Part shown: positions 10,464 through 32,856 of the stretch, one piece after another
How positions within the stretch are numbered: position 1 is the first letter of the stretch
Layout of the letters: each line of letters starts with the position of its first letter
NCBI GenBank assembly: GCA_903938365.1
Contig: CAJACZ010000120.1
Coordinates: forward strand, 1 to 34,047
Length of the DNA: 34,047 bases
DNA from: an uncultured Pseudomonadota bacterium
GTDB taxonomy: Bacteria; Pseudomonadota; Gammaproteobacteria; Steroidobacterales; Steroidobacteraceae
Reading direction: 5' to 3'
Made by a program: the position numbers and the translations under genes
The notes under the pieces: model-generated
Seen by the model: the letters and a program-made list of their open reading frames with translations, nothing else
Database searches by the model: none
What the model was told of the DNA's origin: nothing

Positions 10464-11219
10464 CTAAAGCTGCCCGATGCGGCTCTGCCAGCCGTTCAGC
10501 AAGGGGTGGGGCCCCGGTGGCAGCTCGAGCTGCACGCGCTTCGCCAGCGCCCAGGCCATGCAGAGACTGGTCGAGAGCACCGGCAGGTCGCAGGACTGCG
10601 CGAGCGTGTCGATCGCGCGCAGGCTGGGCATCCCGGTGCCCGTGAAGAGCACGCACTGCGCGCGGCCGAGGTCCAGCTCGCGCACCGCGGCCAGCGCATC
10701 GTCGCTGCCCAGTTCATAGATGGTGCGGGTGTCGCTGGTGCGGGTCACGACGCGGTGCTTGGCGACGATGTCCAGGCCGGCCGCCTGCAGGTACGCGGCG
10801 CCGGCGTCCACGACGAACTGGGGATACGGGGCAACCACCGCCACTCGTTCCACCTCGAGTGCCGCCAGTGCTTCGAGGATGGCCGCACCGCCGGTGACGA
10901 TCGGGTAGCCGTAGCGCGCGGAGAAGCCGGCGACCAGTTCGGCCTCGCGCGCAGCCCCCACCAGGTAGGACGACGCCGTGCAGGCGAAACCCAGCGCGTC
11001 GAGCTTCAGCGTGTCGTAGCTGGCCAGCGTCTTGCCCAGGTCCTCGATGTAGCCGATGAAGCGCAGCCGCGGCTCGGGGTCCGGGTTCACGAGGCGCGTG
11101 GCGAGCACGCTCACGCCGCTCGGGAACAGGATGTTCATCTCCGGCTCGACCACCGGGTTGGCCTGCGGCACCGCCATCCCGATCCGCGCCCGCGAGCCGT
11201 ACTCGCGCCCGCCGGTCAT
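10464..11219 (-). CDS. Asp/Glu racemase superfamily (maleate isomerase / arylmalonate decarboxylase-like)
   Basis: 251 residues. Two-fold fold: MAVPQANPVVEPEMN near the N-terminus, GFACTASS with Cys80, TGGAAILEAL, and a C-terminal VLFTGTGMPSLRAID followed by PVLSTS. Family enzymes work with one or two Cys flanking the active site. Here the first is Cys80, but the second-half position, which by hand alignment matches Cys188 of Bordetella arylmalonate decarboxylase, is Gly194. It could be an isomerase, racemase or decarboxylase of a small acid. The ATG overlaps the nitrilase stop by 4 nt, so it is translationally coupled to an amidase and probably acts on the amidase product. Confidence 0.8.
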   Translation of the reverse strand: MTGGREYGSRARIGMAVPQANPVVEPEMNILFPSGVSVLATRLVNPDPEPRLRFIGYIEDLGKTLASYDTLKLDALGFACTASSYLVGAAREAELVAGFSARYGYPIVTGGAAILEALAALEVERVAVVAPYPQFVVDAGAAYLQAAGLDIVAKHRVVTRTSDTRTIYELGSDDALAAVRELDLGRAQCVLFTGTGMPSLRAIDTLAQSCDLPVLSTSLCMAWALAKRVQLELPPGPHPLLNGWQSRIGQL

Positions 11220-12265
11220 GGCCGCTGCACCACGCCGGAGGCCGACAGTCGGTCCATCGTCTCGCGCATGATTTCCGCGATGCGCGCCTTGGAGCCCATG
11301 GGTTCATCCACGAAGCTGTTCGGCGGATAGAAATGCGCCTGCTCGTACACGCGCATGTACATTTCGGTGCGCTGGCGGGCGATGCGGTTCAGCGGCCCCA
11401 CTTCCTGACGGGCGAGGCGCAGGCCGGTCACGTCGATCATCGCGTTGGTGCGCGTGCTCTCGCCCGGCCCGCCGCTGTCCGCGAGGGTCAGGCCGTTGTA
11501 GTCGATGATCTTGGAGTGCCCGAGATTATTCGAGCTGGCCGGCGAGCCGACGACGCCGCCCGAGTTGGACGACACCAGGTAAACCATGTTCTCGGAGGCG
11601 CGGGTGCGCTTGGCCGATTCCCAGGCGATGAAATCGCCGGCGCCGTGATCGCTGGTCGGGTGCAGGATCACCTCGGCGCCGCGGAACATCAGCACGCGGC
11701 AGGCCTCGGGATACATGATTTCCCCGCAGGGGATCATGCCGATGTTGCCGATCTCGGTCCGCGCCACCGGGAACGCACCCTCGACGCCGTAATGGTCGAA
11801 ATAGCGGTCCATGAAGTCGTGCGGGGACGGCGAGTGCACCGTATTGACCCGCTTGTACTTGAGGATGATCGAGCCCGAAGGGTCGATCAGGAACGAGCAG
11901 TTGAAGTAGCGCCCGGGCCACTGCGGGTCGCGCTCGTAGGCGTTCGCGCCGATGTACACACCGAAGCGCTGCGCCATCTTCTGCAGCCGCTCGGTCTCGG
12001 GGCCGGGGATCTCGATGCAGGCCTTGGCGATCCATTCCGCCGCGGACTCGCGCATCGGGAAGCCCGTGAGCGCGAACTCCGGGAACAGCAGCAGCTGTCG
12101 CGTGACGCCGCCGGAGCGGCCGACCGCCGCGGCGATGAACGACTCCCAGCGATCAAGGCTGCGATGGATGATCGCCAGCGCCTCCTCGCGGGTGGAGACA
12201 TCGTTCACGACATGGTTGAGCGTCTGGATGCAGGTGGCCCGCCAGGGTAGGAGCATCTTGGTCAT
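11216..12265 (-). CDS. Carbon-nitrogen hydrolase (nitrilase superfamily)
   Basis: 349 residues. Catalytic Glu63 lies in LFPEFALTGF and nucleophile Cys180 in GMIPCGEIMYPEACR. The lysine region reads KYKRVN (136-141), so the gap-free lysine position is Arg139, with Lys138 beside it. HPTSDHGAGDF follows the nucleophile helix. Members hydrolyse amides, nitriles or N-carbamoyl groups in the cytoplasm. The context, sandwiched with 4-nt overlaps between the ABC ATPase and the racemase-fold gene, suggests it acts on the imported compound. A paralogue of identical length lies at 31744-32793, with the nucleophile replaced by Ser. Confidence 0.87.
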   Translation of the reverse strand: MTKMLLPWRATCIQTLNHVVNDVSTREEALAIIHRSLDRWESFIAAAVGRSGGVTRQLLLFPEFALTGFPMRESAAEWIAKACIEIPGPETERLQKMAQRFGVYIGANAYERDPQWPGRYFNCSFLIDPSGSIILKYKRVNTVHSPSPHDFMDRYFDHYGVEGAFPVARTEIGNIGMIPCGEIMYPEACRVLMFRGAEVILHPTSDHGAGDFIAWESAKRTRASENMVYLVSSNSGGVVGSPASSNNLGHSKIIDYNGLTLADSGGPGESTRTNAMIDVTGLRLARQEVGPLNRIARQRTEMYMRVYEQAHFYPPNSFVDEPMGSKARIAEIMRETMDRLSASGVVQRP

Positions 12266-14837: not shown

Positions 14838-15775
14838 GCCGGCGCGTCCGCGAGGCGCGGATCCAGGCGCCGGAAGGTGAAGTCCATGAGCACGTTCACC
14901 CCGAACACCAGGATCGCGATGACGAAGACTTCGGCCTGCACGACCGGGAAGTCCAGGGTCTGCACGGCCTCGAGCAGCAGCGACCCCATGCCGGGCCAGG
15001 AATAGATCGACTCGATGATCGCACTGCCGCTCAGCAGCCCGGCGAACTGCACCCCGATCAGCGCGGAAGCGCCGAGCAGCGCGTTGGGCAGCGCATGCCG
15101 CCACAGCAGGGTGTGGAACGGCGCCCCGTAGGCGCGGCCGGTGCGGATGTAGTCCTCGCGCAGCGCCTCGGTGACGTTGGCGGCGACGATGCGCGTCAGG
15201 CTGGGCGCGGAGAACGTGGCCAGGGACAGCGTCGGCAGCACCCAGGTCTTCCAGTCCGAGGCGCTGTAGCCCACGGACGGCAGCCACATGAGCTGGATCG
15301 CCAGCAGCTGGATGAACAGCAGCGCCAGCACGAAGCCGGGCGCGCCCTGCAGCACGAACACGATGCCGGAGACGAGGCGGCGCCCGGCCCGCTCGGGCCG
15401 CGCCCCGAGCCAGGCCCCCAGCGGAATGGACACGACGATGCTCAGGAACATCGCCATCGAGGCCAGCTGCAGCGTCTGGGGAAAGCGCTGCATCACGGTG
15501 CCGAGCGCGGAGTCCCCCGTGATCAGCGAAGCGCCGAAGTCGAACCGCAGGACGTTGCCGAGGTAGCTGAGGTATTGACCGAACAGGGGCCGGTCCAGCC
15601 CGTACTGCAGGCGGATGGCCGCCAGCTGCTCCGGCGTCGCACCGACCCCGGCCAGCACGTACGCCGGATCGCCGGCCTGGCGCAGCAGGAAGAACAGCAG
15701 CGTGCTGATCGTGAACAGCAGGACCAGCAGTTTTCCCAACTGCGGCAGCACCGCGCGGAGCAGTCGCTCGCCCAT
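14834..15775 (-). CDS. ABC importer permease, DppB type
   Basis: 313 residues from ATG 15775, whose A is shared with the stop of the substrate-binding protein (TGATG). The N-terminal helix is followed by YGLDRPLFGQYLSYLGN, a DppB hallmark. The EAA-like loop reads TEALREDYIRTGRAYGAP, and SGSAIIESIYSWPGMG is also typical. It has about six membrane helices and is an inner-membrane partner of the DppC-type permease. Confidence 0.92.
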   Translation of the reverse strand: MGERLLRAVLPQLGKLLVLLFTISTLLFFLLRQAGDPAYVLAGVGATPEQLAAIRLQYGLDRPLFGQYLSYLGNVLRFDFGASLITGDSALGTVMQRFPQTLQLASMAMFLSIVVSIPLGAWLGARPERAGRRLVSGIVFVLQGAPGFVLALLFIQLLAIQLMWLPSVGYSASDWKTWVLPTLSLATFSAPSLTRIVAANVTEALREDYIRTGRAYGAPFHTLLWRHALPNALLGASALIGVQFAGLLSGSAIIESIYSWPGMGSLLLEAVQTLDFPVVQAEVFVIAILVFGVNVLMDFTFRRLDPRLADAPA

Positions 15776-17310
15776 CACGGCAGGCGCCGCGCAAGGCGTT
15801 CGAGGTGGAGCATGTCCTGCACGGGCGCATAGCCGTCGAGATTGGCCGCCACCACGTCGAAGTCGGGGCGCTGCCACAGCATGAGCCCGGGCGGATGATC
15901 CCGTTCGTAGCGTGCGATGGCCGCATACAACGCCTGTCGCCTGCCGAGGTCGGACTCGACCATGGCCGCGTGCAGCTGCCGGGTCAGCACGGGATCGCAG
16001 TGGAAGGGCTGGCGTGAAGGACTGCTCTTGAGGCACGAGCGATGCCGGTAGTCGTTCAGCGGATCCGTGCCCCGCGTGTTCCAGCTGAACAGGTCCACGT
16101 CGAGCTTGCCGGAGAAGATGTCCTGCATCTGGCGCGCGGGCGGCCGTCCGCGGATCTCGACGTCGATGCCGATCTTCTTGAGGTCGGACGCGATCTGCTG
16201 GTAGTAGAGCGTGTCCCCCACCACCTCGCCGGTGGTCACCATCATGGTGAGCGCGAAACCCTCGGGGTAGCCCGCCTCGGCCATCAGGCGCCGCGCCGCC
16301 GCCGGGTCATGGGGCAGCGGGGCGAGTGCCGGGTCGTAGCCGAAGGCGCCGGGGAAACTCAGCTGGCTCGCCGGACCGGTGGCGCCTCCGAGCACGTACC
16401 GCGTCAGCAGCGCCCGATCCACCGCGAGCGTCATCGCCCGCCGGACGCGCGGATCCTTCAGCGGCGTCGCGGCCCTGCGCTCGGTGCGGAACGCGAGCAG
16501 GTCGACCTGCGGCGTGAGCCGCGCCACCACCCTGCCCCCTGCCCGCGCGACCGCCGCCGTGGTGTCCGGCGAGACCACCATCGCCATGTCGACCGCGCCG
16601 GACAGGAAGGCCTGCACGCGCGCCGTCGCATCCGGGATCATCAGCAGTTCGAGCCGGGCCGCAGCGGGCCTGCGCCAGGCCTGGGTATTCGCCTCCAGCA
16701 CCAGCCGCCCTTCCTCGCGCCCGGCCAGCACGAACGGCCCCGAGCCCAGCGCGTTGCGGGCACCCGCCGGCAGCTTCAGGGTGCGCCAGTGGGCGGGCGC
16801 GGGGATCCGCCAGATGCTCGCGTGCAGCGGCAGCAGGGGATCGGGCTCGCTGAGCCGGATCCGCGCGGTCAGTGCGTCGACCTGCTCGACCGACTCGATC
16901 TGTGCGAGCGTGCTGCCGATGGTCTCGCCACGGCCACGCAAGGTGGCCATGTGGCGCGCCGACTCGACCAGCGCCTCAGCCGTGAAAGGCTCGCCGTTGC
17001 TGAAGCGGACGCCCGGTCTGAGCCTGAACAGCCACTCGGTCGGGCTCTCCTGCTCCCAGGACAGCGCCAGTGCCGGTACCACCTGACCACTGGCATCCAT
17101 GCTGGTGACGGTGTCGAAGACCGCCTGTAGGGCCAGCGTCGAGGGAATGGTGATGCCCTGGTAAGGGTTGCCGATGGCCGGCGGAATCACCGGGACGGCG
17201 ATGCGGATCGGGGTGTCCCGCCCGACCGGCGGCTTCTCGGTACACGCCGAGGTCACGCCCAGCAGCAGGAGCGTCACGGCCGCCAGGGTGAGCCGCGGGC
17301 GCGGGTTCAC
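15775..17310 (-). CDS. Family 5 extracellular solute-binding protein, probable lipoprotein
   Basis: 511 residues. A short signal peptide ends VTSA/C23, a lipobox-like site, so the protein is probably lipid-anchored rather than free in the periplasm. The SBP family 5 fold follows, including LALSWEQESPTEWLFRLRPG and FSNGEPFTAEALVESARHM, with DPLNDYRHRSCLKS late in the protein. It captures the transported solute, a peptide or another oligopeptide-sized compound. It is coupled by 1- or 4-nt overlaps to the monooxygenase before it and the permease after it. The ligand is unknown. Confidence 0.9.
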   Translation of the reverse strand: MNPRPRLTLAAVTLLLLGVTSACTEKPPVGRDTPIRIAVPVIPPAIGNPYQGITIPSTLALQAVFDTVTSMDASGQVVPALALSWEQESPTEWLFRLRPGVRFSNGEPFTAEALVESARHMATLRGRGETIGSTLAQIESVEQVDALTARIRLSEPDPLLPLHASIWRIPAPAHWRTLKLPAGARNALGSGPFVLAGREEGRLVLEANTQAWRRPAAARLELLMIPDATARVQAFLSGAVDMAMVVSPDTTAAVARAGGRVVARLTPQVDLLAFRTERRAATPLKDPRVRRAMTLAVDRALLTRYVLGGATGPASQLSFPGAFGYDPALAPLPHDPAAARRLMAEAGYPEGFALTMMVTTGEVVGDTLYYQQIASDLKKIGIDVEIRGRPPARQMQDIFSGKLDVDLFSWNTRGTDPLNDYRHRSCLKSSPSRQPFHCDPVLTRQLHAAMVESDLGRRQALYAAIARYERDHPPGLMLWQRPDFDVVAANLDGYAPVQDMLHLERLARRLP

Positions 17311-18950
17311 ACACGCGCACCACGGATCGTATCGACCAGGCCTGCGGCGTCGGCGGGCACCTGATCGCCGCGCCAGGCCACGTGGCCGTCGGGCCGCACC
17401 AGCACGAGTCGTTTTTCGTAGAGCGCGGCGGCCGGCGCATCGCGGACGTCGCTGACTCCGATCGGCAGGCCGACCGCGGCAGCCGCCGCAACCAGCCGCG
17501 CGTCGTCGGCCTGCGGCTCACCGAAGCGCAGCAGCACGAAATCGCCGCCCACGAGGTCCAGCATCGAGCGGCCATCCGGCAGCCAGGCATGGGGCGCGCG
17601 CATGCCGGGCCAGCTCGACGGGACCACCTGGCAGGGATCGTCGGGCGGTTCGGGCGTGCCGTCGCCGACGATGACGGGCGAATCGACGTAGCGGTAGCCG
17701 AGGTGCGTGCCGGCGCTGTTGAACTGCCGCGCCAGCCACTTGATCTTGCGCGCGAGCAGGCTGCGCGCCGCGTCGCCTGCCGGTCCGGGCGCGTCGATGT
17801 CCGCCGGCGTCTCGTCCATGACCATGTCGATCTTGTCGGAGTTGGTCGCGGAGATCAGGCTGTTGCGCACGGCCACCGGCTTGCGTTCGATTTCGTAAGT
17901 GTCGAGCAGCGCCGAGCCGCCCCAGCCCCGCAGCACCGCGTCGAGCTTCCAGGCGAGGTCACAGGCGTCGCCGATGCCGGTGTTCATGCCCACCCCGCCG
18001 GTGGGCGCGAACAGGTGCGCCGCATCGCCCGCGAGGAACACGCGGCCGTCGCGGTATCGGCGCGCCACCGACTGGTGATGGTGCCAGTGCATGGTCTGCA
18101 AGAGCTCGAAGGCGAACGGCTTGCCCATCGCGCGATGCAGGATCGCCTCGGCGTCCAGGTTCTCGGTCGATCGGGTCGGATCCAGCAAGTAGTACTGGTA
18201 GTTCCACAGCTCGACGCCATCGATCGCCGTGAACACGCCGAAACTGTCCGGCGTGAACACGAAGTAGAGGTTCGCCATGCCGAGCCCGTGCGCGGGCAGG
18301 AAGTCCCTGCTGCGGAAGAAGAAGCTGACGTTGCCGCGCATCTTGCCGCGGCCGTTCCTGCGGATCCCGAGCTGCCGGCGGATGCCGCCGGTGCCCCCGT
18401 CGCAGCCGACGAGATAGCCTGCGCGGACCTGCTCCTCGCGCCCCGTGGCCACCTCGACGAGCCGCGCGATCACGTGATCGTCGAACTGCTGGAAATCCTC
18501 GAAGCGCCAGCCGTGGCGCATGTCCAGACCGGGCAGCGTGCGCGCCTTGTCCAGCAGCACCGGCTCGAGCGCCTGCTGGCCGATCTGCGTCTTGGAATAA
18601 GGCGACCAGTTCAGTTCGCGATGCCGCGCCAGCGCAGCCGGATCCCGCGTCCGCCCCTCGTCGATCGAAGGGGAGCGGAACCGGTGCAGCTCGGTGCCCG
18701 CGAGCCGGGTCGTGAAAATGATGTAGTAGGGGTGCGCGTTCGGGACGGCGGCGGCGAAGATCGGCTCGTCGAGGCCCCAGCGCCGGTACAGCTCCATGGA
18801 ACGTGCGCCGAGCAGCGTCGCCTTGGGGTGCGCACCGGGCCCGGTTCTCTCCTCGACGAGCAGCGCGCGCTGGCCGCGCAACGCCAGGTCGATGCCCAGG
18901 CTCAGGCCCACCGGGCCACCGCCCGCGATCAGAACCGGGGTCTCGATCAT
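17307..18950 (-). CDS. FAD-dependent class A monooxygenase (PheA/TfdB type)
   Basis: 547 residues. The N-terminal FAD dinucleotide motif is IAGGGPVGLSLG (8-19). The DG motif appears as VGCDGGTGGIRRQLG, and the GD motif as FLAGDAAHLFAPTGGVGMNTG. A C-terminal thioredoxin-like domain (about 430-547) is typical of the phenol/chlorophenol hydroxylase branch. It hydroxylates an aromatic or heteroaromatic ring using NAD(P)H and O2 in the cytoplasm. Its position between the amidohydrolase and the binding protein, with 4-nt overlaps on both sides, argues that the imported compound carries a ring to be oxidised (inference). Confidence 0.9.
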   Translation of the reverse strand: MIETPVLIAGGGPVGLSLGIDLALRGQRALLVEERTGPGAHPKATLLGARSMELYRRWGLDEPIFAAAVPNAHPYYIIFTTRLAGTELHRFRSPSIDEGRTRDPAALARHRELNWSPYSKTQIGQQALEPVLLDKARTLPGLDMRHGWRFEDFQQFDDHVIARLVEVATGREEQVRAGYLVGCDGGTGGIRRQLGIRRNGRGKMRGNVSFFFRSRDFLPAHGLGMANLYFVFTPDSFGVFTAIDGVELWNYQYYLLDPTRSTENLDAEAILHRAMGKPFAFELLQTMHWHHHQSVARRYRDGRVFLAGDAAHLFAPTGGVGMNTGIGDACDLAWKLDAVLRGWGGSALLDTYEIERKPVAVRNSLISATNSDKIDMVMDETPADIDAPGPAGDAARSLLARKIKWLARQFNSAGTHLGYRYVDSPVIVGDGTPEPPDDPCQVVPSSWPGMRAPHAWLPDGRSMLDLVGGDFVLLRFGEPQADDARLVAAAAAVGLPIGVSDVRDAPAAALYEKRLVLVRPDGHVAWRGDQVPADAAGLVDTIRGARV

Positions 18951-20314
18951 CGACTTCGCCTCTTCTCGTTGACGGGAATGCCGAGTGCGCCCAGGTCGAT
19001 CCGGCGACCGCCCTTGAAGACCGCCTCGATCGCCTGGTACGCCGCCACGTCGCGGGACGGATCCGCCTTCAGCAGCACCATGTCGGCCAGCTTGCCGGGC
19101 TCGATCGAACCCAGCTCACCCTCGCGGCGCAGGTAGCGTGCGCCGTTCAAGGTAGCGATGCGCAGCAGGTCCGGCAACGGGATTCCCGCCTGCGCCAGCA
19201 ATTCGAGCTCCATGTGCACCGAAGCGCCCAGCGTGCGGTCAGTACCCAGCGCGAGCGGCACTCCCGCTTCATGCAGCCGCTTCACGGTGCGCGCGAGATG
19301 GGGATTCATCACCTTGAACTGCGCGGACATGCCACTGGCGATGTAGCGCTGCCGCTCCTCGTTGCGGAGAAAGGCCAGCTCCGCAGGATCGACGGTGGCG
19401 CGGAACAGCGGCGCATCGAGGAACCCGGGCTCGTCGGCCACCCGGGCGATGTGACCGAACACGGCCAGCGTGGTCGACACCGGGATACGGCGCTCGGCGA
19501 GCGCCTGCGCGAACGCCGGCGTCACCGCCGCGCGTACGGGATGCGCGAAGGAATCGATGCCGGCCTCCAGCGTCGCCAGCGAGTCCCACTCCGTGGTCGT
19601 GTGGACGGTGGTAGGGATGCCGCGGGCGTGCGCGAGCGCGATGACGCCCTTCAGGTTGTCCTGCGACAGTACTCCGGCGGCAGGCGTGCCGAAGGTGCCC
19701 AGGCGGTCGTAGAGGATCTTCTGCAGGTCGGGCTGGCGATCGAAATGCGCTTCGAGCCGCGCCCGGTCCGCCTCGAGGCTCGAGACCTTGATCGAGAACG
19801 CGTTGTCGCCGTAGCCCTGTGGCGCGGTGATGTTCGCGCCCGTCGCAAAGATGCGCGGCGCGAGCAGGGTTCCCGCGCGCTCCTCGGCGCGCAGCCCGAA
19901 AATGAAATCCGCGTTGTTGCCCGAGTCGAACACCGAGGTGACGCCGCAGTACAGGTAGGCCTGCAGTGTCCGCAGGGCCAGTGCGCGATCGACGCTCGTG
20001 CCCGGCACGCCGGGCCGCGCGACGCGGCCACCCTGCACGTGCACATGCGTGTCGATCAACCCGGGGATCAGGAAGCGCCCCGCGCCCTCGACTACGCTCG
20101 CGCCGGCGGGCACGGGCGCTCCGCCGGGCTGCACCGCCACCACGCGCTCGCCCGAGATCCACACCGACACGCCGGGCCTGGGCGCCGATCCCGTGCCGTC
20201 CAGCAGCGTGACGTCGCGGATGACGAGTTGCGGGCTTTCCCCGGCAGCCGCGAGACCCGCCGACAGGAGCAGCGCTCCTGCCAGCAGGCAGCCTCGGAGG
20301 GAACGGGTGCTCAA
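18947..20314 (-). CDS. Exported amidohydrolase (imidazolonepropionase/prolidase-like)
   Basis: 455 residues from TTG 20314, which overlaps the TonB receptor stop as TTGA; no ATG gives an equally complete signal peptide. Residues 1-25 form a signal peptide ending LAAAG. The metal site begins with DTHVHV (His90, His92). Further ligands fit His in TTVHTTTEWDS, His in SFAHPV and Asp in LALGTDRTLG. Such enzymes cleave amide, peptide or ring C-N bonds and act here in the periplasm. It probably trims the compound brought in by the TonB receptor before ABC import (inference). Confidence 0.87.
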   Translation of the reverse strand: MSTRSLRGCLLAGALLLSAGLAAAGESPQLVIRDVTLLDGTGSAPRPGVSVWISGERVVAVQPGGAPVPAGASVVEGAGRFLIPGLIDTHVHVQGGRVARPGVPGTSVDRALALRTLQAYLYCGVTSVFDSGNNADFIFGLRAEERAGTLLAPRIFATGANITAPQGYGDNAFSIKVSSLEADRARLEAHFDRQPDLQKILYDRLGTFGTPAAGVLSQDNLKGVIALAHARGIPTTVHTTTEWDSLATLEAGIDSFAHPVRAAVTPAFAQALAERRIPVSTTLAVFGHIARVADEPGFLDAPLFRATVDPAELAFLRNEERQRYIASGMSAQFKVMNPHLARTVKRLHEAGVPLALGTDRTLGASVHMELELLAQAGIPLPDLLRIATLNGARYLRREGELGSIEPGKLADMVLLKADPSRDVAAYQAIEAVFKGGRRIDLGALGIPVNEKRRSR

Positions 20315-22785
20315 AACTCGAGAGAGATGCGGACGCCCGCCGTACGCAAGCGCGGCAGCACCGCGAACACGGTCGGCTGCGAGACAGCCGTGGGACCCAC
20401 GCGGAAATTCGACGCGGAACCGCGCACTGCGGAGACCCAGTTGTCCTCGTCGAACACGTTTTCGGCATACACTTCGACGCGCAGACCATCGCGCTCGAGG
20501 CCGGCGCGCAGGTTCACGCGGGTCTTGTCTTCGAGCCAGCTCTGGTTGATCTCGTCGACATAGATCCGGCCGGTGTAGTTCGCCTCGCCGCGCGTGTACC
20601 ACTCCCAGTCGTTCCCGCCGAGACTGATATCGTCGCGGTACGTGGTGCTGAAACTCGCCTGGATACCGGGGAAGCCCACCGGCGTCTTGCCCGTGGCGTC
20701 CGTCTGGCCGGTGGGCGCCAGGGTGAGCGGCGTGAAGATCCGGCCGTATCGTGCGTGCACCCAGTCGAACTTGAGCGACATGTCGAGATTCGACGTGAGC
20801 CGTGCATCGACCGCGGCCTCGAGACCGTAGATCTCGGCTTCGGCGGGGATCACCGCGGGTGCGAACGCCCCGGGCAGCCCCGGTCCGCACACGTTGCCCG
20901 GACACGGCGTGTTCACGGTGTTCTTGAGGTTCTGCCAGTCCATGTAATACACGGCAGCGGCATAGCGCAGGCTGCCGAAAGACTGCTTCAGGCCGACTTC
21001 GTAGCTGTCTACGGTCTCGACCGGAACGTCGAAGGCATAGCCCGGGATCGCGGCGATGATCGTCTGCAGCGCCGGCGAGAGCAGCGTGAAGTTCGAGTTG
21101 GTGGTGCCGCGCGTGGCGCCCCGCGACCAGGAGCCGTAGAGCGTCGTGTCTTCCGAGGGCTTGTAGGTGGCGATGACGCGGGGCAGGAATTCCTCGTAGG
21201 TCGAGGACGTCTGGGTGGAGAGGCCGAAGGAGGTGGTCGCCTTGTCGACCTGGTACCGCCCCTCGAAATCGAGCGCGAACTGGTCGGTCACGTCGAACCG
21301 GATGCCGAAGAAGCCCGAGTAGTACTCCACTTCGCCCTGGCCACTGTAGGTGGCGGGTTCGGTGTAACTCACGCGGTTGGTGGCGTCGAGCACCGAGATC
21401 AGCGCACCGGTGCCACTCGGGCCGCCCACGGAACGCTGCTTGAAGTAGTTCGCGCCGACCAGGCCGCTGAGCCTGCCCCGCGGTCCCGAACTCAGGCGGA
21501 CGTCGAAGCTCTCGTCGGTAAGGATGTTGGTGGACACGACGTACTGGTTGCCGTTGTCATCGGTGCTGGCCTGCGCGGTGGTGGCCTCGCTGCGGCTCCT
21601 GGAGACCGTGACATCCAGCGTGGCGCCCCCCTGGAAGTCGTATCCGGCCTCGAGCGAACTGCGCGTGAACCGGCCGGCGAGCCCGGCCTCGGTGAGACGA
21701 GGCGTTTCACCGATGAACGGCAAGCCGTTGCGGACCAGTGGATTGTTCCGGTTGTCGTTCAATACATCGATCACGATGTTCGGGTTGTTCGACTTCGCGA
21801 AAGCCGGCGGCACCAGCGAGGTGGCGGCGCTCGCCGCACCCGGAGCGAGCTGGTCCGGCTTGGGGATGGAGCCGCAGAAGAAGAACGCGGTGCCGGTCCG
21901 ACAGCGTCCGGGCGCATCGAGCAGCTCCGGCCGGTTCGGGTTCAGGTTGGCCGTGCCGTTGCGCGAATCGCTCAGCGCGACCTCGCTGTGACGCAGGCGG
22001 ACCCGCACTTCATCGCTGGGCTTCCAGAGCACCTGGGCATTGAGGACCTCGGTGCTCTCGCGGCCCAGCTCACCCCCGTCGGTGGCGGTGAAATGGGCGC
22101 CCTTCTCGTTCGCGGCGCCGCTGATGCGGAAACTCAGCGTCTCGGAGATCGGTCCTTCGACGCTGGCGGCGAAATTCCGCGTGCCGCGCGTTTCGACGCC
22201 GCCCGAAATACGCGCGCGCAGCTCGTTCGAGGGCTCGCGGGTGATGAAATTGATCGCGCCGGAGAACGTGCTGCGGCCGAACAGCGCGCTCTGCGGACCC
22301 TTGATCACCTCGACGCGCTGGATGTCGTCGAAGGTCAGCGACTGGGCGCCCCCGAAGAGATACATCCCGTCGACGAAGATGCCTCCGAGCTGCTCGAGGG
22401 GATCGTTGCGGGGGATGGTCATGCCGCGGAAGCGCAGCGCCGGGGTGACGCGCGAGGAACTGAAGGTCACCTGCGGGGTGTAGAAGAACCCGGGCGCGAC
22501 CTGCGCGAGATCGGTGATGTCGCGCAGGTTCGCATTGGCGATTTCCTCGGCGCCGATCGAGGTGATCGACAGGGGAGCATCGTAGAGGCTCTCCTCACGC
22601 CGGCGGGCGGTGACCACGACATCCTCGAGCAGGAGCTCCGTCGCGGGCGCCGCGACAGTCGCGGCGGCTGGCGCACCCTGCGCAAACGCGGGGCCGCCCA
22701 GGGCACCCAGTGCCAGCGCGAGGGCGCTGGCGGCCGGGATCCCGGGTCGGGATCCACGGGCCGTGAACCGATCTGCAGTCGACAT
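20311..22785 (-). CDS. TonB-dependent outer-membrane receptor
   Basis: 824 residues. Signal peptide (about 1-36, ending AFAQ). A TonB box-like EDVVVTARR segment follows, then the plug with VIKGPQSALFGRSTFSGAINF. The rest is a long beta-barrel ending SLEF with the terminal Phe that BamA recognises. The start ATG 22785 has a good Shine-Dalgarno, AAGGGG, 8 nt upstream. It imports a scarce or large substrate across the outer membrane using TonB energy. It is the first gene of the central operon, so its leader is the likely control point. Nothing in the plug identifies the ligand. Confidence 0.95.
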   Translation of the reverse strand: MSTADRFTARGSRPGIPAASALALALGALGGPAFAQGAPAAATVAAPATELLLEDVVVTARRREESLYDAPLSITSIGAEEIANANLRDITDLAQVAPGFFYTPQVTFSSSRVTPALRFRGMTIPRNDPLEQLGGIFVDGMYLFGGAQSLTFDDIQRVEVIKGPQSALFGRSTFSGAINFITREPSNELRARISGGVETRGTRNFAASVEGPISETLSFRISGAANEKGAHFTATDGGELGRESTEVLNAQVLWKPSDEVRVRLRHSEVALSDSRNGTANLNPNRPELLDAPGRCRTGTAFFFCGSIPKPDQLAPGAASAATSLVPPAFAKSNNPNIVIDVLNDNRNNPLVRNGLPFIGETPRLTEAGLAGRFTRSSLEAGYDFQGGATLDVTVSRSRSEATTAQASTDDNGNQYVVSTNILTDESFDVRLSSGPRGRLSGLVGANYFKQRSVGGPSGTGALISVLDATNRVSYTEPATYSGQGEVEYYSGFFGIRFDVTDQFALDFEGRYQVDKATTSFGLSTQTSSTYEEFLPRVIATYKPSEDTTLYGSWSRGATRGTTNSNFTLLSPALQTIIAAIPGYAFDVPVETVDSYEVGLKQSFGSLRYAAAVYYMDWQNLKNTVNTPCPGNVCGPGLPGAFAPAVIPAEAEIYGLEAAVDARLTSNLDMSLKFDWVHARYGRIFTPLTLAPTGQTDATGKTPVGFPGIQASFSTTYRDDISLGGNDWEWYTRGEANYTGRIYVDEINQSWLEDKTRVNLRAGLERDGLRVEVYAENVFDEDNWVSAVRGSASNFRVGPTAVSQPTVFAVLPRLRTAGVRISLEF

Positions 22786-27240: not shown

Positions 27241-28092
27241 CTATCCGGCGAGGAAGTCACCGATCGCGTCGACCACGGCGCCCGGCGCCACCTCGAAGAG
27301 CCCGTGGCCATAGCCCTGAAGGTCGACGAACCGCGCATCGCGCAGCAGCCCGCGCGCCCTTGCGGTCGGCTCCCACAGGTCGTCCTTCGGCCGCAGCACC
27401 AGCGTCGGCTGCGCGACTTGCGCCAGCCGCTCGCGCACCGGGTAGTTCATCACTGCGTTCGCGCCCCACCAGGCCTGCGATCCGTTGCGCAGTTTCTCGG
27501 CGAAGCCCCGCGCCAGCATGTCGAGCGTGACCCCCGGACCGCGCCACTGCAGGCTGCGCTGCCACTCCGCCATCAGGTGACTGCCGTCCTCGGCCACCGG
27601 CAGCGGCCAGGGCCTGGCGCGGAACTCGGCCCGTTCCGCCTCATCGAGCACGGGCACTGCGACCAGCACCAGGCGGCGCACCCGTTCCGGCCGCGCGAGC
27701 GCGAGCTCCGTCGCGATCAGCGAGCCCGTGTGATAGCCGAGCAGGTCGACGGAACGGAAGCGCATGGTGTCGATGAAATCGAGCATCGCGGCGGCGTAAT
27801 CCGCGATGCCAGGCTCGCCCGCAGGACCGTCCGACTCGCCGAAGCCCGGCGTGTCCGGCGCATAGACCGAACGATCGCGCGCCATGAGTTCGAGGAAGGG
27901 CCGGAACACGCGGCCCGACATCGGGCTCTGGTGGAAGCACAGCAGCGGCGTGGCCTCGTCGAAGCCGCCACCCGGCGGCAGCGCGTGATGCACGTGCAAC
28001 TGGCCGTAACGGCTCTCGAAGTAAGTGCGGATCAGCCGCGGCCGTGGCTGCGGATCGGCAGGAGTCGAGCTTCGTTCACCGGACTTCGCCAT
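27241..28092 (-). CDS. Alpha/beta hydrolase with His at the nucleophile position
   Basis: 283 residues from ATG 28092. An in-frame ATG at 28161 would overlap the divergent gst promoter. The fold is clear: LLCFHQSPMSGR as the oxyanion region, DTPGFGESDGP, a nucleophile elbow, RPKDDLWEPT for the acid, and GYGHGLFEV for the His. However, the elbow reads GYHTG (119-123), so the residue that should be Ser, Asp or Cys is His121. The protein may be a non-hydrolytic member, or may use a different residue. It shares a divergent promoter region with the glutathione transferase. Confidence 0.82.
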   Translation of the reverse strand: MAKSGERSSTPADPQPRPRLIRTYFESRYGQLHVHHALPPGGGFDEATPLLCFHQSPMSGRVFRPFLELMARDRSVYAPDTPGFGESDGPAGEPGIADYAAAMLDFIDTMRFRSVDLLGYHTGSLIATELALARPERVRRLVLVAVPVLDEAERAEFRARPWPLPVAEDGSHLMAEWQRSLQWRGPGVTLDMLARGFAEKLRNGSQAWWGANAVMNYPVRERLAQVAQPTLVLRPKDDLWEPTARARGLLRDARFVDLQGYGHGLFEVAPGAVVDAIGDFLAG

Positions 28093-28118
28093 CTTGCTGG
28101 GCCTCGCTTGGGGTTCGG

Positions 28119-28148
28119 TTGACGTTGTGCGCCACAGACCCTCATAGT
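28119..28148 (+). promoter_or_regulatory. Sigma70-type promoter of the gst gene
   Basis: TTGACG (28119-28124, 5/6) and CATAGT (28143-28148, 4/6) are separated by 18 nt. The start would be near 28155, leaving a 35-nt leader with a weak CGGAG site before ATG 28190. Confidence 0.5.
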
Positions 28149-28189
28149 GCCATTTCAGCACCGCACCAGACCCACCCGGAGTCGCAGTA

Positions 28190-28843
28190 ATGAAGCTCTA
28201 TGGCATGCTCGTTTCCCCTTATGTCGCCCGCGTCGTCCTCGCCGGACGCGCCAAGGGGATCACCATATCGCCCACGGCTCCGCCGGGCGGCGGCATCAAG
28301 TCGCCGGATTTTCTTGCGCTCAACCCCATGGGCAAGATGCCCGCGCTCGAAAGCGACGGCCGTTGCATACCGGAGTCGATGGTCATCCTCGATTACCTCG
28401 AAGACGCCTATCCGCAGCACCCGCTGCTGCCGGCAGACCCGATGGACCGAGCGCAGGCGCGCCTGCTCGGCCGCATCGTCGACCTGTACGTCATGAACCA
28501 GCTCGGCGTGTTCTTCCGCAACATGAATCCTGCCGCCCGTAACGCCGCAGAGGTCGAGACCGCCACGCAGGCCCTCACCAAATCGCTCACCGACCTGGAG
28601 CACTTCATGGGCGAGGGCCCGTACGCACAGGGCGGCACCCTCGGGTATGCCGACGTGGCCATGCTGCCCTGCCTGCAGATGGTCGGCACGGTGGCGTCCG
28701 CGTTCGGCGTCGCCGACCTGTACGCCGGCCGCCCGAAGCTCACGCGCTGGTGGCAGCAGATGCAGGCCGATCCGGTCACCGGCCCGTTTGCGACGGAATA
28801 CACCGCCGCGGTCAACGCCTTCCTGGCCAGTCGCCGCGGCTGA
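28190..28843 (+). CDS. Glutathione S-transferase family protein
   Basis: 217 residues, normal GST length. The N-terminal thioredoxin-like domain (about 1-80) starts KLYGMLVSPYVARV, with Ser9 at the usual catalytic Ser/Cys position. It includes NPMGKMPALE, with the cis-Pro, and PESMVILDYLEDAYP, the glutathione-binding Glu-Ser pair. An all-helical domain follows, with YADVAMLPCLQM containing the conserved Asp of the N-capping motif. It conjugates or isomerises electrophiles with glutathione. The next gene on the strand is a quinone-reductase-like MDR, 63 nt on, so the pair may form a detoxification or catabolic unit. Confidence 0.92.
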   Translation: MKLYGMLVSPYVARVVLAGRAKGITISPTAPPGGGIKSPDFLALNPMGKMPALESDGRCIPESMVILDYLEDAYPQHPLLPADPMDRAQARLLGRIVDLYVMNQLGVFFRNMNPAARNAAEVETATQALTKSLTDLEHFMGEGPYAQGGTLGYADVAMLPCLQMVGTVASAFGVADLYAGRPKLTRWWQQMQADPVTGPFATEYTAAVNAFLASRRG

Positions 28844-28906: not shown

Positions 28907-29875
28907 ATGTTCGGATACCGGGTTGCCGAATTCGGCGACGTGGACGTGATGCGCTGGGTCGAGCTGCCGGATCCGGTGCCCGGCGCCGGCGAGCTGCTCG
29001 TGCGCGTCCATGCCTCAGGCATCAACTTCGCCGAGACGCGCATGCGCGCCGGCACCTACTCGGGCCAGCCCCTGCCCTTCGTCATGGGCATGGAGTCCGC
29101 AGGCGTGGTCGAGGCGGTCGGCCCCGGCGTCACCGAATACAAGGTCGGCGATCGCGTGTTCGGCCGTGCCCGCGGCTCGCATGCCACGCACGTGCTGTTC
29201 GAGGTGCTGCACACGCTGCCGCTGCCCGACTCCATGGACTTCGTCGCCGGTGCGGCGATCCCGGTGGGCTGGCTCACCGCCTGGCACGCCGTGATGACCG
29301 TGGCGCGCGCCCGGCCCGGCGAGCGCGTGCTCATCGAGGCGATCGCGAGCAGCGTCGGCAGCGCCGCGCTGCAGATCGCCAAGTGGCAGAACTGCTGGGT
29401 CGCCGGCACCGCAAGCCGCGACGACAAGTGCGCCCGTGCGCTCGCGGCGGGCGCCGACGCGGCCTACAACTACAAGACCGACGACCTCCCCACCCGCGTG
29501 ATGGCCGACACGGGCGGGCACGGCATCGACGTCGGGCTGATGACCATCGGCGAGGAGACCGCGCGCGCGCTGTTCGACTCGATGGCCTACGAAGGCCGCA
29601 TCGCGATGTACGGCAGCACCGGCGGCCGCCAGGTCTGCTTCAGCCTCAACATCGGCATCCGGAACCTGCAGCTGCTGGCGATGAGCATCTCTTCGAGCGC
29701 GCGCTTCGTCCCGGAGAGCATGCCGAGTTTCCGCAAGGTCGCCCTGCCGCTGTTCGCCTCAGGACGGTTCAAGGCGGTGGTGGACACCGTGCTTCCCATG
29801 AGCGAGCTCAACCGGGCGCACGCGATGGTCGATTCGCGCACGCACTTCGGCAAGATCGTCCTCGTCAACGACTGA
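28907..29875 (+). CDS. Zinc-free medium-chain reductase, quinone oxidoreductase type
   Basis: 322 residues from ATG 28907, with AAGGA 9-13 nt upstream. The N-terminal GroES-like domain includes GELLVRVHASGINFAETRMR, a quinone-reductase signature. A Rossmann domain follows with IASSVGSAALQIAK as the nucleotide loop. The zinc-binding residues of alcohol dehydrogenases are missing. It probably reduces a quinone or enone with NADPH. It ends 4 bases short of the stop of the convergent MDR gene. Confidence 0.87.
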   Translation: MFGYRVAEFGDVDVMRWVELPDPVPGAGELLVRVHASGINFAETRMRAGTYSGQPLPFVMGMESAGVVEAVGPGVTEYKVGDRVFGRARGSHATHVLFEVLHTLPLPDSMDFVAGAAIPVGWLTAWHAVMTVARARPGERVLIEAIASSVGSAALQIAKWQNCWVAGTASRDDKCARALAAGADAAYNYKTDDLPTRVMADTGGHGIDVGLMTIGEETARALFDSMAYEGRIAMYGSTGGRQVCFSLNIGIRNLQLLAMSISSSARFVPESMPSFRKVALPLFASGRFKAVVDTVLPMSELNRAHAMVDSRTHFGKIVLVND

Positions 29876-29879
29876 GGAC

Positions 29880-30869
29880 TCAGTCGCCGTAGCGGATGAC
29901 CACCTTGCCGTCGCGCTCGGCGCCGGTCCGGCCGGCGCGGTCGCAGGCCTCCAGCACCTGGTCGAGCGAATAGACCCCGGCGATCTTCGCCTCCAGGTAG
30001 CCCTCGGACATGAGCTTCGCCAGCCGGATGTAAAGCGCGCGCACCTGCTCGGGCGTGCGGTTGCGGAACTGCCGCGCGAAGCTCAGCCCCACCAGCTTGA
30101 TGCCGCTGCGGAACAGCAGGTAGAAGTCGATGTGGCAGAGCTGCTTGCTCATCGAGCCGAGGCTCACCACGGTGCTCTCGGGCGCCAGGCACTCCGCAAT
30201 GCGCTGCGTTGCGGGACCCGACACGGCGTCGATGCCGAGCTTGACGGGGGCGCCGCCCACCGCCGCGGCCACGCGCGCCGCCAGGTCGGGGCCATCGAGC
30301 AGCACCACGTCGGCGCCCAGCTCGCGCAGCTCGGCTTCCATCTCGGGCCTGCGGATCACATTGACCGTGCGCACGCCCTTGAGTTTCGCGAGGCGGATCA
30401 GGTACCGGCCACAGTTCGAGTTCGCGGCGTTCTGGATCAGCCAGTCGCCACGCTGCAGGTCCGCATAGTCCTCGAGCAGCACCTCGGCGGTCGGCCCGTT
30501 CACCGTGAGCAGGCTCAGCTGGATCGCATCGCCCGCCGGGGCGGGCAGGCAGGCCGCCGCGGCGCAGCGCACCTCCTCGCGGAAAGTGCCGCTCGCCAGC
30601 GCCGGGAACACGCGGTCGCCGACCTTGTACTGAGTGACCGCGGCGCCCACGCGGGCCACGTGCCCGATGCCCTCGAAGCCGGGCGTTCGCGGCACGGGGA
30701 AGCGGAAATGGTCGGCGCCCTCGATGGTGCGCAGATCCGCGATATGCATCGCGGCGGCCTCCATCCTCACGACGAGCTCGTCGGGACCGGGCTGCTCGGC
30801 GGGCAGGTCAACGACGCGCAGCACGTCGGCGGGCGCTCCATAAGCGGACTGGATGACGGCCTTGGGCAT
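29880..30869 (-). CDS. Medium-chain reductase, enoyl-thioester reductase (MECR/ETR) like
   Basis: 329 residues from ATG 30869. The Rossmann part reads IQNAANSNCGRYLIRLAK then VRTVNVIRR, very close to mitochondrial 2-enoyl-thioester reductases. Those enzymes reduce trans-2-enoyl-ACP or -CoA with NADPH. The loop where those enzymes carry their catalytic Tyr reads IEGADHFRFPVP here, with no Tyr, so the substrate may differ. The start lies 5 nt after the MBL stop, so nitrilase paralogue, MBL and this reductase probably form one three-gene unit. Confidence 0.82.
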   Translation of the reverse strand: MPKAVIQSAYGAPADVLRVVDLPAEQPGPDELVVRMEAAAMHIADLRTIEGADHFRFPVPRTPGFEGIGHVARVGAAVTQYKVGDRVFPALASGTFREEVRCAAAACLPAPAGDAIQLSLLTVNGPTAEVLLEDYADLQRGDWLIQNAANSNCGRYLIRLAKLKGVRTVNVIRRPEMEAELRELGADVVLLDGPDLAARVAAAVGGAPVKLGIDAVSGPATQRIAECLAPESTVVSLGSMSKQLCHIDFYLLFRSGIKLVGLSFARQFRNRTPEQVRALYIRLAKLMSEGYLEAKIAGVYSLDQVLEACDRAGRTGAERDGKVVIRYGD

Positions 30870-30874
30870 AGGAT

Positions 30875-31744
30875 TCAGTTCCCCGTGATGAGATAGCTCA
30901 GGATTCGGTCCGCGGTCTGCGGCGCCCATTGCGTGAAGCCGCTCCAGTGCCCGAAGCGGCCTTCGAGGTGGGTGGCGGCTGCGCGGGTGACCTCGCCGCG
31001 CACGCGCTCGGTCATCGCGACGCCGTCCTCGCCGGGCAGTGGCACCTGGCCGCCCGCGGCGCGGTATTCAAGATGGGTGGCGTCGAGCAGCCGCAACACG
31101 TATTCGCGGTAGTCGGCGACCCAGTGCCGCTCGCCGGGGCCGGTGTGGCCGCCGACGACGCAGTCGAAGTCCAGGCGCTCGACCTGCTCGAGCGTATGCA
31201 GGTAGCCGGCGAAATCGGTGTCGGGGAGGTTGCGGTAGGGCGCGATGCCCGGCTCGATGCCGTCCACCCAGACCAGCATGCGACCGCGGTCCGTGGGGAG
31301 CAGGAACAGCAGGTTGGAGTCCGAATGATTCGGGCCGAAATAGCGGACCTCGATGTGCGAGGCGCCATCGGCGATCACCGCGCCGTCGCCGAGCAGCTGC
31401 GTCGGCGGCAGCACGTCGGCATCGCCGCGACGCGCAATGCGTGCCTGCGCGGTCTCGTGGGCACAGACCTCGCAGTGCCCGCCCGACTCGAGCACGCTGG
31501 CGGCGAGCACGCGGCCACCGCAGATGTGGTCACGATGGTCGTGCGAGTAGACGATGCGCGCCAGCGGCCGGTCGGTGGCCTGCGCGATGGCCGAGCGGTA
31601 GGCCACGGCCGCTGCGTCGCTGATCGGGTCGATGGCGGTCACGCCCCGGTCCCCGACGACGAAGGTGCTGAGATAGAAGCCCTTGTTCCAGCGGAACAGG
31701 TGCACCCCGCGGCCGAGGCTCTCGAGCTGCCAGGCCGCCGTCAT
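30875..31744 (-). CDS. MBL-fold metallo-hydrolase
   Basis: 289 residues from ATG 31744, whose A is shared with the upstream stop (TGATG). Metal ligands: HDHRDH in VYSHDHRDHICGG, His in FGPNHSDSN, Asp in VWVDGIEPG, and His in VVGGHTGPG. All positions of a two-metal site are filled. No signal peptide. It probably hydrolyses a thioester, lactone or amide (inference from the family). It is a homologue of the partial gene at 1-513, and is translationally coupled to the Ser180 nitrilase paralogue. Confidence 0.87.
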   Translation of the reverse strand: MTAAWQLESLGRGVHLFRWNKGFYLSTFVVGDRGVTAIDPISDAAAVAYRSAIAQATDRPLARIVYSHDHRDHICGGRVLAASVLESGGHCEVCAHETAQARIARRGDADVLPPTQLLGDGAVIADGASHIEVRYFGPNHSDSNLLFLLPTDRGRMLVWVDGIEPGIAPYRNLPDTDFAGYLHTLEQVERLDFDCVVGGHTGPGERHWVADYREYVLRLLDATHLEYRAAGGQVPLPGEDGVAMTERVRGEVTRAAATHLEGRFGHWSGFTQWAPQTADRILSYLITGN

Positions 31745-32793
31745 CAGAGGATGCCGCGGGCCACCATGCGCTCGATGGCATCGGCCTGCCGTTTCTGGAA
31801 ATAACTGCGGTCGGGGACCAGGATGCGGTCGCCGTCGAGCAGGCCGTTGGGGCGCCGCAGGTCGGCCTTCGCGTAGGAGTCGGCGAACAGATCGAGCGCC
31901 TGCCGCGACAGCATGTTGGCCATCGCGGGGCGGCGGCGATAGGCGCGCAGCCCTGCCATGTCGAGGAAAGTGTTGGCCACCGAGGAAGCGCCGGCGCCCG
32001 CCAGCACCATCTGGTTGCCGTGGTAATCGATGATGTCCGAGTAGCCGTTGCTCGAGTCGATAGGGACGTCGATGCCGTGCAACGACGCGTTGTTCGCGGA
32101 CACCACGTAGGCGAGGTTCTCGAGTGCGCGGGCACGGCGCGCGATCTGCTTGATCGTGAGGTTGGGCGAGGCGACCTCGCTGGTGCAATGCAGGAAGATC
32201 TCGGCGCCGCGGATGGCATGGCAGCGCGCCACCTCGGGGTAGAGGATCTCCTCGGAAGCGATCGCCGCGAGCTTGCCGATGGCGGTGTCGGCCACCGGGA
32301 ACACGCCCTCGAGCCCGTAGATGTCGAGGTACTTGTCCCAGACGTCCTGCGGCGTGGGAGCGAAGATGCTGATCAGCCTGCGGTAGGTGAGGATGCGGTT
32401 GCCGGACGGGTCGAACACCCAGCAGGCCTGGAAATACAGCCCGGGGAAGTGCCGATCGGTCTCGTAGCCGTTGCCGGCGAGGAACACGCCGTGCTTCTGC
32501 GCGAGCGCGCCGAGTGCGTAGTCTTCGGGACCGCCCGGCGCGATGGCGCCCTTCTCGGCCCACTCGGGGATGGTCTCGCCCCAGGGCGGACCACTGAGGA
32601 TGTACTCGGGCAGCACCACGAGCTTGAGTTCGGAGCCGATCCAGCGCCGCGCCCCTGCGATGGCCGAATCGATCCGCTTGATGGAGGCCTGCATGCGCAC
32701 CGCCGAGGCCGCCCGGTCGCGGTCAGGATGCACGCCGTCGCAGTCGATCTGCAGCGCAAGGGCCACGAAGCGGTCGAGTTTCTCTGTGCTCAT
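31744..32793 (-). CDS. Nitrilase-superfamily paralogue lacking the catalytic Cys
   Basis: 349 residues from ATG 32793, with GGAGGA 5 nt upstream. It aligns without gaps over the first 200 residues with the protein at 11216-12265: Glu63 is kept (VLPEYIL), but KYKR becomes TYRR (136-139) and Cys180 becomes Ser180 (AAIASEEILYPE). The rest of the fold is conserved (DPSG, PTPQDVWDKYLDIYGLEGVFPV, YSDIIDYHG), and there is no frameshift, so it is a maintained protein. A classical Cys-Glu-Lys mechanism is not possible. It may be a regulatory or structural partner, perhaps of the coupled MBL hydrolase, or a Ser-based enzyme. Confidence 0.82.
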   Translation of the reverse strand: MSTEKLDRFVALALQIDCDGVHPDRDRAASAVRMQASIKRIDSAIAGARRWIGSELKLVVLPEYILSGPPWGETIPEWAEKGAIAPGGPEDYALGALAQKHGVFLAGNGYETDRHFPGLYFQACWVFDPSGNRILTYRRLISIFAPTPQDVWDKYLDIYGLEGVFPVADTAIGKLAAIASEEILYPEVARCHAIRGAEIFLHCTSEVASPNLTIKQIARRARALENLAYVVSANNASLHGIDVPIDSSNGYSDIIDYHGNQMVLAGAGASSVANTFLDMAGLRAYRRRPAMANMLSRQALDLFADSYAKADLRRPNGLLDGDRILVPDRSYFQKRQADAIERMVARGIL

Positions 32794-32856
32794 CGGGATC
32801 CTCCAGTGGCGGCTATTATCGGTCACGTTCCCCGTCCAGCGACAGGTTATACGCCC
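32794..32856. promoter_or_regulatory. Divergent promoter region, nitrilase paralogue / reductase
   Basis: 63 bases between two divergent starts. On the minus strand GATAAT (32815-32820, 5/6) lies 21 nt before ATG 32793, with the GGAGGA site between them. No good -35 was found. On the plus strand only a weak AGG precedes ATG 32857. Confidence 0.4.

Follow-up and report, generated by a model that had tools for sequence, protein, structure and literature searches.

The stretch of DNA analysed here (the window, 34,047 nucleotides) carries, near one end, a gene for a nitrilase-superfamily protein with Ser at the position of the nucleophilic Cys. This Ser-type gene is followed on the same strand by genes for a metallo-beta-lactamase-fold (MBL) protein and a reductase, and a Cys-bearing paralogue lies elsewhere in the window. 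The features concerned are as follows, with the basis for each assignment in brackets:

11216..12265, minus strand: Cys-type paralogue P0003 (Glu-Arg-Cys), 349 aa, member of a neighbouring clade (BLASTP, alignment, tree)
27241..28161, minus strand: alpha/beta hydrolase, a neighbour in some relatives (Pfam, neighbourhood comparison)
28190..28843, plus strand: glutathione S-transferase family gene, a frequent neighbour (Pfam, neighbourhood comparison)
28907..29875, plus strand: second quinone-oxidoreductase-type gene, a frequent neighbour in the genus (Pfam, neighbourhood comparison)
29880..30869, minus strand: quinone-oxidoreductase/zinc-binding-dehydrogenase-type reductase, 329 aa (Pfam, NCBIfam, neighbourhood comparison)
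30875..31744, minus strand: MBL protein, 289 aa, with an HxHxDH motif (Pfam, NCBIfam, neighbourhood comparison)
31744..32793, minus strand: Ser-type (Glu63-Arg139-Ser180) nitrilase-superfamily protein P0002, 349 aa (intact frame, Pfam CN_hydrolase, AF2 model)
32254..32256, minus strand: Ser180 codon TCC, nucleophile-Cys site (alignments)
32377..32379, minus strand: Arg139 codon AGG, catalytic-Lys site (alignment)
32605..32607, minus strand: Glu63 codon, general-base Glu site (alignment)
32800..32804, minus strand: GGAGG Shine-Dalgarno-like site, 6 bases 5' of the ATG (sequence reading)

The intact 349-residue frame that the first-pass annotation placed at 31744-32793 is indeed present, on the minus strand, and so is the Shine-Dalgarno site it had described (GGAGG at 32804-32800, 6 bases before the ATG); the plus-strand reading of the same interval is not the gene and was discarded. 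The stop codon of the Ser-type gene overlaps the start codon of the MBL gene (TGATGA). MBL profile searches were run with a query carrying one extra leading codon, and the two resulting Pfam scores lay just below the curated cut-offs. The gene order in the window is thus Ser-type gene, MBL and reductase, whereas in most loci of the genus a reductase of the type encoded at 29880..30869, the usual downstream partner there, follows the Ser-type gene directly.

P0002 matches PF00795 (CN_hydrolase) with 78.1 bits against a curated cut-off of 23.2 (E 8.5e-22), and this is the only Pfam family found at E 0.001. Its AF2 model (pLDDT 90.9, pTM 0.92) has the amidase AmiE (2uxy) as top-ranked solved fold (Z 31.6, rmsd 2.8, 286 residues aligned), and the other top-ranked solved folds are amidases and formamidases, the latter with Z about 30. 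Alignment with AmiE, by phmmer as well as by profile, places Glu63 on the catalytic Glu, Arg139 on the catalytic Lys and Ser180 on the catalytic Cys. AmiE and AmiF thus share with P0002 the fold and the general-base Glu, at 19-22% identity in the structural alignments, but the catalytic Lys and Cys of AmiE correspond to Arg139 and Ser180. P0002 scores far below the NCBIfam equivalog cut-offs for formamidase (46 bits vs 406), aliphatic amidase (45.2 vs 427) and N-carbamoylputrescine amidase (37.2 vs 410.25), and the amidase-signature Pfam model, which represents serine hydrolases with a Ser-cisSer-Lys triad, gives no match. By family match, fold and catalytic Glu, P0002 is a homologous member of the nitrilase superfamily, and by the absence of the catalytic Lys and the nucleophilic Cys it is a non-canonical branch.

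Comparison with P0003 sharpens this picture. Both copies match CN_hydrolase above the curated cut-off and, as the first-pass annotation had it, are equal in length (349 aa each). BLASTP aligns them with 113/290 identical (39%) and 167/290 similar residues and 5 gap positions in total, residues 1-32 being left out of this local alignment. The claim that they align without gaps through residue 200 is nearly right: a single residue is gapped near residue 48, and the remaining four gap positions all come after residue 240. The replacement of Cys180 by Ser180 stands, since Ser180 aligns both with Cys180 of P0003 and with the catalytic Cys of AmiE. The second difference that had been pointed out, KYKR in P0003 and TYRR in P0002, is correct to the letter and fails as a distinguishing mark: the canonical Lys (the K of YRK in AmiE) lines up with the final residue of these segments, which is Arg in both copies (Arg139 in P0002), and because the Lys change is common to the Cys-bearing copy it does not mark P0002. 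The Glu-Arg-Cys clade formed by P0003 and its relatives therefore resembles P0002 in length and in having Arg at the Lys site, and differs from the Ser clade in its nucleophile turn (P-C-G vs A-S-E) and in F64, N122 and W215, where the Ser clade has Y64, Q122 and K215. The surroundings of P0003 (window 10464-22785), judged by eye from the translations, look like a catabolic or transport cluster, with a LysR-type regulator, a racemase/isomerase-like protein, a peptide-type ABC transporter with binding protein, an FAD monooxygenase, an amidohydrolase and a TonB receptor.

Relatives were collected from species genomes of bacteria and archaea, a scan that kept 80 of 175, from the window's own family and from phylum surveys, the last being samples with E-value limits. 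In the merged set of 155 distinct nitrilase-family proteins, 126 are Glu-Arg-Ser, 11 Glu-Arg-Cys and 9 Glu-Lys-Cys, and the rest comprise 2 Glu-Lys-Ala, 1 Glu-Lys-Val and 6 tandem-domain stretches with Gly at the Cys site. Glu63 and Arg139 are present in 126/126 Ser proteins, none having Ser180 without Glu63 or Arg139. Together with the Nonomuraea protein (L210) and three from the Bacteroidota survey (L213-L215), all four with Ser180, the 126 proteins of the merged set, the window's own included, bring the count to 130/130 clade proteins read with Ser at this position. Ser180 is therefore fixed among the orthologues read and not due to chance; Cys180 was looked for in close orthologues and found in none. 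Identity to P0002 is 78-84% for same-genus orthologues and about 50-56% for members from other phyla, with Ser wherever the position was read. The clade spans, by the labels of the database records, Pseudomonadota, Cyanobacteria, Acidobacteriota, Bacteroidota, Neomarinimicrobiota and Actinomycetota.

The distribution of the Ser-type gene is patchy but wide. Within the window's family, matches at E <= 1e-60 occur in 43/217 genomes, with 47 clade places of which 43 were read at residue 180 (the other 4 lying in G116, G150, G167 and G168). The Pseudomonadota sample gave matches in 3/398 genomes, the window's own included (E <= 1e-50), and at E <= 1e-40 the counts were 15/292 for cyanobacteria (phylum of L059), 4/149 for Neomarinimicrobiota (phylum of L087), 3/149 for Acidobacteria (phylum of L060) and 4/198 for the phylum of L111, a member of the Saprospiraceae. 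Scores against P0002 leave a gap between the two types: in the family and Pseudomonadota scans clade members reach E about 1e-100 or better and Cys relatives about 1e-60 or worse, and in one set of relatives' ORFs no protein scores between 217 and 323 bits.

Several records met along the way deserve comment. The orthologues on two contigs titled as 'Klebsiella pneumoniae' MAG (L041, L054) share 84% and 78% identity with P0002 and likewise adjoin the reductase gene; both records are probably mislabelled. The 11.85-Mb Nonomuraea replicon NZ_LT559118.1 (L210) is recorded as a plasmid but probably represents the Nonomuraea gerenzanensis chromosome. Nitrilase lineages with Ala at the Cys site and the Lys kept were seen in L204, L205, L211 and L212, the last two being haloarchaeal replicons, and one haloarchaeal relative, more distant from P0002, with Ala at this site is annotated 'nitrilase-related carbon-nitrogen hydrolase'. 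Long frames of about 630-1070 aa occur in the window's own genome (L006, L007, L008) and in relatives (L196, L197, L206); the former combine a stretch whose C-F-D motif is intact with another in which the Cys site holds Gly, and in the latter the stretch read was the Gly-bearing one. From their sequences, these appear to be tandem nitrilases in which one domain is dead.

Ser180 did not change in isolation. The 126 Ser proteins have 40 invariant columns, among them E63, Y137, R138, R139, D150, S180 and E182, and the entropy at E63, R139, D150 and S180 is 0 against 1.10 bits for the median column; at the level of these alignments, such conservation is unlike that of a drifting site. At nine positions (L14, Y64, Y91, Q122, W152, A179, S180, E181 and K215) a single residue accounts for at least 97% of the clade and is found in 0/20 Cys relatives, Glu-Arg-Cys and Glu-Lys-Cys taken together. 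Besides S180, 4/8 of these switched positions lie no more than two residues from E63, R139, D150 or S180 (background 19/331; hypergeometric 4.8e-4), a count in which D150 figures as catalytic by inference alone; with D150 left out, 3/8 lie near catalytic residues (background 14/331, p 0.003). D150 is invariant in the Glu-Arg-Ser, Glu-Arg-Cys and Glu-Lys-Cys groups, and its spacing from Arg139, 11 residues, equals that between Lys121 and Glu132 in MtCPA, a plant N-carbamoylputrescine amidohydrolase (PMC4812014, in excerpt). K215, considered as a candidate replacement base, is found in 125/126 Ser proteins, and Trp takes its place in 20/20 Cys relatives. The site matching K215 presumably neighbours a His of MtCPA. 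This His belongs to a docked secondary site outside the catalytic cavity (PMC4812014, in excerpt), and we therefore do not claim K215 as catalytic. A relocated Cys nucleophile was also sought and rejected: no Cys column is invariant, and the best, C18, is present in 108/126 Ser proteins and also in 8/11 Glu-Arg-Cys proteins.

A tree was built by IQ-TREE quick search from 67 rows (45 Ser, 11 Glu-Arg-Cys, 9 Glu-Lys-Cys and 2 Glu-Lys-Ala), the Ser rows, save the window's own, being below 82% mutual identity; the Glu-Lys-Val protein and the 6 tandem-domain stretches are outside this set. All Ser rows fall on one side of a single branch (SH-aLRT 97), with the Glu-Arg-Cys group beside them (SH-aLRT 99) and Glu-Lys-Cys and Glu-Lys-Ala farther out; the tree is unrooted, SH-aLRT is its only support and it carries a long-branch warning with four Ser rows among those flagged. 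Since the Glu-Arg-Cys group is nearest, the topology suggests that Lys was replaced by Arg first and Cys by Ser second, provided that the root lies among the Glu-Lys-Cys or Glu-Lys-Ala proteins. The Ser180 codon is TCN in 125 proteins and AGC in one (L036), a switch that takes more than one step. For 20 sequences from the genus of the window, dN/dS has a median of 0.086 (range 0.012-0.39; dS defined for 162/190 pairs), values that are rough because dS is near saturation. Judged from these comparisons, the Ser-type gene is under purifying selection.

Gene neighbourhoods were then compared over the 80 loci, counting as downstream neighbour a gene that starts within 600 bp on the same strand. This neighbour is an aldehyde dehydrogenase in 53 loci, mostly cyanobacterial, a quinone-oxidoreductase-type reductase in 13, for the most part from the genus of the window, an MBL protein in 3 and a member of no tested family in 11; of these 11, five reach a contig edge within about 300 bp and one (L079) has an aldehyde dehydrogenase at 710 bp. 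The coupling to the MBL protein proposed in the first-pass annotation is therefore not the rule, and the MBL protein, which adjoins the gene in a minority of relatives only, can be ruled out as an obligate partner. In L018 (2513-3415) the MBL next to the Ser-type gene is apparently split into two adjacent frames, as is consistent with a dispensable MBL. An aldehyde dehydrogenase lies within 4.5 kb in 54/80 loci, 29 of which also hold a DUF3598 protein at some point in the locus sequence examined, most of these loci being cyanobacterial and so not independent. The nitrilase-aldehyde dehydrogenase pair recurs in Acidobacteria (L060), Neomarinimicrobiota (L087, L093), Saprospiraceae (L111) and Pseudomonadota (L118, L132, L133), and in Nonomuraea the order is aldehyde dehydrogenase, DUF3598, Ser-nitrilase. 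No aldehyde dehydrogenase is found within about 1.5 kb in the three Bacteroidota survey loci (L213-L215), and two cyanobacterial loci for which 3-6 kb downstream was available, L068 and L089, also show none. Of the 292 cyanobacterial genomes sampled, 15/15 with the nitrilase encode the aldehyde dehydrogenase, against 17/277 of those lacking the nitrilase (Fisher 1.1e-16, kinship ignored). On the gammaproteobacterial side, other downstream genes encode an ETF subunit (L058, L126, L131), an SDR (L134) and a flavin amine oxidase (L137); in L175 the downstream gene is an amidohydrolase and not an oxidoreductase, and for the neighbours in L128, L135 and L169 Pfam gave no match.

The catalytic motifs of the aldehyde dehydrogenase are intact in 78/80 copies, some of which are the same gene counted twice. 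The DUF3598 protein is modelled as a beta barrel (pLDDT 93.4) nearest to BFA1 and to 2o62, a DUF3598 structure from Nostoc. Fatty-acid-binding-like and lipocalin-type folds rank lower, and this lipocalin-like fold of the model suggests a hydrophobic ligand. Ten stretches around the aldehyde dehydrogenase in nitrilase-free cyanobacteria showed no consistent substitute for the nitrilase; in the nitrilase-free cyanobacterial loci L216, L219, L223 and L224 the same aldehyde dehydrogenase is near a gene of the isocitrate-lyase/PEP-mutase family. Because the partner varies between lineages and is not always an oxidoreductase, no substrate can be deduced from the neighbourhood.

The first-pass annotation had left the choice between a pseudo-enzyme and a Ser-dependent enzyme, a framing supported by the presence of Ser in all close orthologues read. 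Our leading reading, put forward tentatively, is that P0002 would serve a carbonyl catabolic module as a putative Ser-dependent (Glu-Arg-Ser) acyl hydrolase or transferase. In such an enzyme the active site would have been rebuilt from Glu-Lys-Cys through Glu-Arg-Cys to Glu-Arg-Ser. Glu63 would accept the proton of Ser180, which would attack the carbonyl of an ester, an activated amide or another acyl compound, the oxyanion would be held by Arg139 and the backbone NH of Glu181, with Asp150 as possible stand-in for the family's second acid, and the acyl group would be released by water or another acceptor. Its partner in a module processing a hydrophobic carbonyl compound would be an aldehyde dehydrogenase or another oxidoreductase, and in many cyanobacterial relatives the lipocalin-like DUF3598 protein would belong to the module too. 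We favour chemistry over scaffolding because Glu, Arg and Ser are invariant, the shell has changed in concert and the partner changes.

The MtCPA variant C158S (PDB 5H8K, 5H8L) is among the closest known counterparts, having Ser at the nucleophile site of the same fold; it is a laboratory mutation in one enzyme that keeps its Lys, whereas the Ser clade is natural and fixed and combines Ser with Arg and other clade-wide changes. In the variant, binding is preserved and reactivity is 'strongly diminished', and the oxyanion hole of MtCPA is made up of Lys121 N-zeta and the main-chain NH of the residue that follows Cys158 (PMC4812014, in excerpt). In P0002 these roles would fall to Arg139 and to the Glu181 NH. 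That a poorly reactive engineered relative is on record, and that the Lys is lost, argues against a Ser enzyme. TEV protease, with a fold that differs from the nitrilase fold, provides a laboratory product that is, in principle, a precedent for a Ser enzyme of this kind. Exchange of its nucleophilic Cys for Ser lowers activity by about 10^4, and near-wild-type activity was regained by directed evolution, the exchange being tolerated after compensating mutations (PMC4576821, in excerpt).

The loss of both Lys and Cys, with Arg and Ser in their place, is also how a pseudoenzyme would be expected to look, and P0002 might have lost its chemistry and been kept as a ligand-binding or scaffold subunit binding and regulating the adjacent aldehyde dehydrogenase or reductase. 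We regard this reading as doubtful, and as the most serious of the alternatives. Conserved pockets are possible in binding proteins too, and the conservation of the Ser clade across cyanobacteria may partly reflect shared descent; the cyanobacterial linkage to the aldehyde dehydrogenase (15/15 vs 17/277 genomes) also speaks for this reading, and in other lineages the Cys site is occupied by Ala or Gly. Published precedents point the same way, in that MtCPA C158S binds ligand and is far less reactive (PMC4812014, in excerpt) and human Nit1 with the catalytic Cys changed to Ala keeps its tumour-suppressor function and partner binding (PMC9913352, in excerpt). Against a pseudoenzyme, Glu63, Arg139, Ser180 and their shell are invariant over six phyla and changed as a set, and the adjacent enzyme type differs between lineages, which is unlikely for a dedicated binding partner.

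An active enzyme that makes no use of a Ser nucleophile is improbable, though the pocket region has been rebuilt beyond the nucleophile, with N122 to Q, W215 to K and G/Y181 to E fixed relative to the 20 Cys relatives. Here Glu63, Arg139, Q122, E181 and K215 would carry out non-covalent chemistry such as hydration, isomerisation or decarboxylation, and Ser180 would be a mere hydrogen-bond donor. We know of no such chemistry for the nitrilase fold, and Ser sits exactly at the nucleophile site in 130/130 proteins. A recent mutation, a sequencing error or a decaying pseudogene, for which nothing speaks beyond the single sequence itself, can be dismissed, given the Ser in all same-genus and other-phylum orthologues read and the low median dN/dS.

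Returning to the Ser-dependent acyl hydrolase or transferase, the wider proposal, which we make with more caution still, is that the clade could represent a natural Glu-Arg-Ser class within the nitrilase superfamily, arisen stepwise by Lys to Arg and Cys to Ser with its shell remodelled, spread over at least six phyla and often accompanied by an aldehyde dehydrogenase and a DUF3598 protein. A 2023 paper has all members of the superfamily share the Glu-Lys-Cys triad (PMC9913352, in excerpt), and among the listed titles and abstract openings of open-licence PMC papers on nitrilases and their context there is no description of a natural Ser-type nitrilase. The clade is deep and departs from Glu-Lys-Cys at two of three catalytic positions, with Glu-Arg-Cys relatives extant. 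Automated annotation by family name would assign possibly wrong chemistry to such proteins. In cultivable Nostoc, the neighbouring aldehyde dehydrogenase and DUF3598 genes offer a concrete way into the pathway, and the clade permits a direct test of either a natural nucleophile exchange in an enzyme family or the turn of an enzyme into a conserved non-enzyme.
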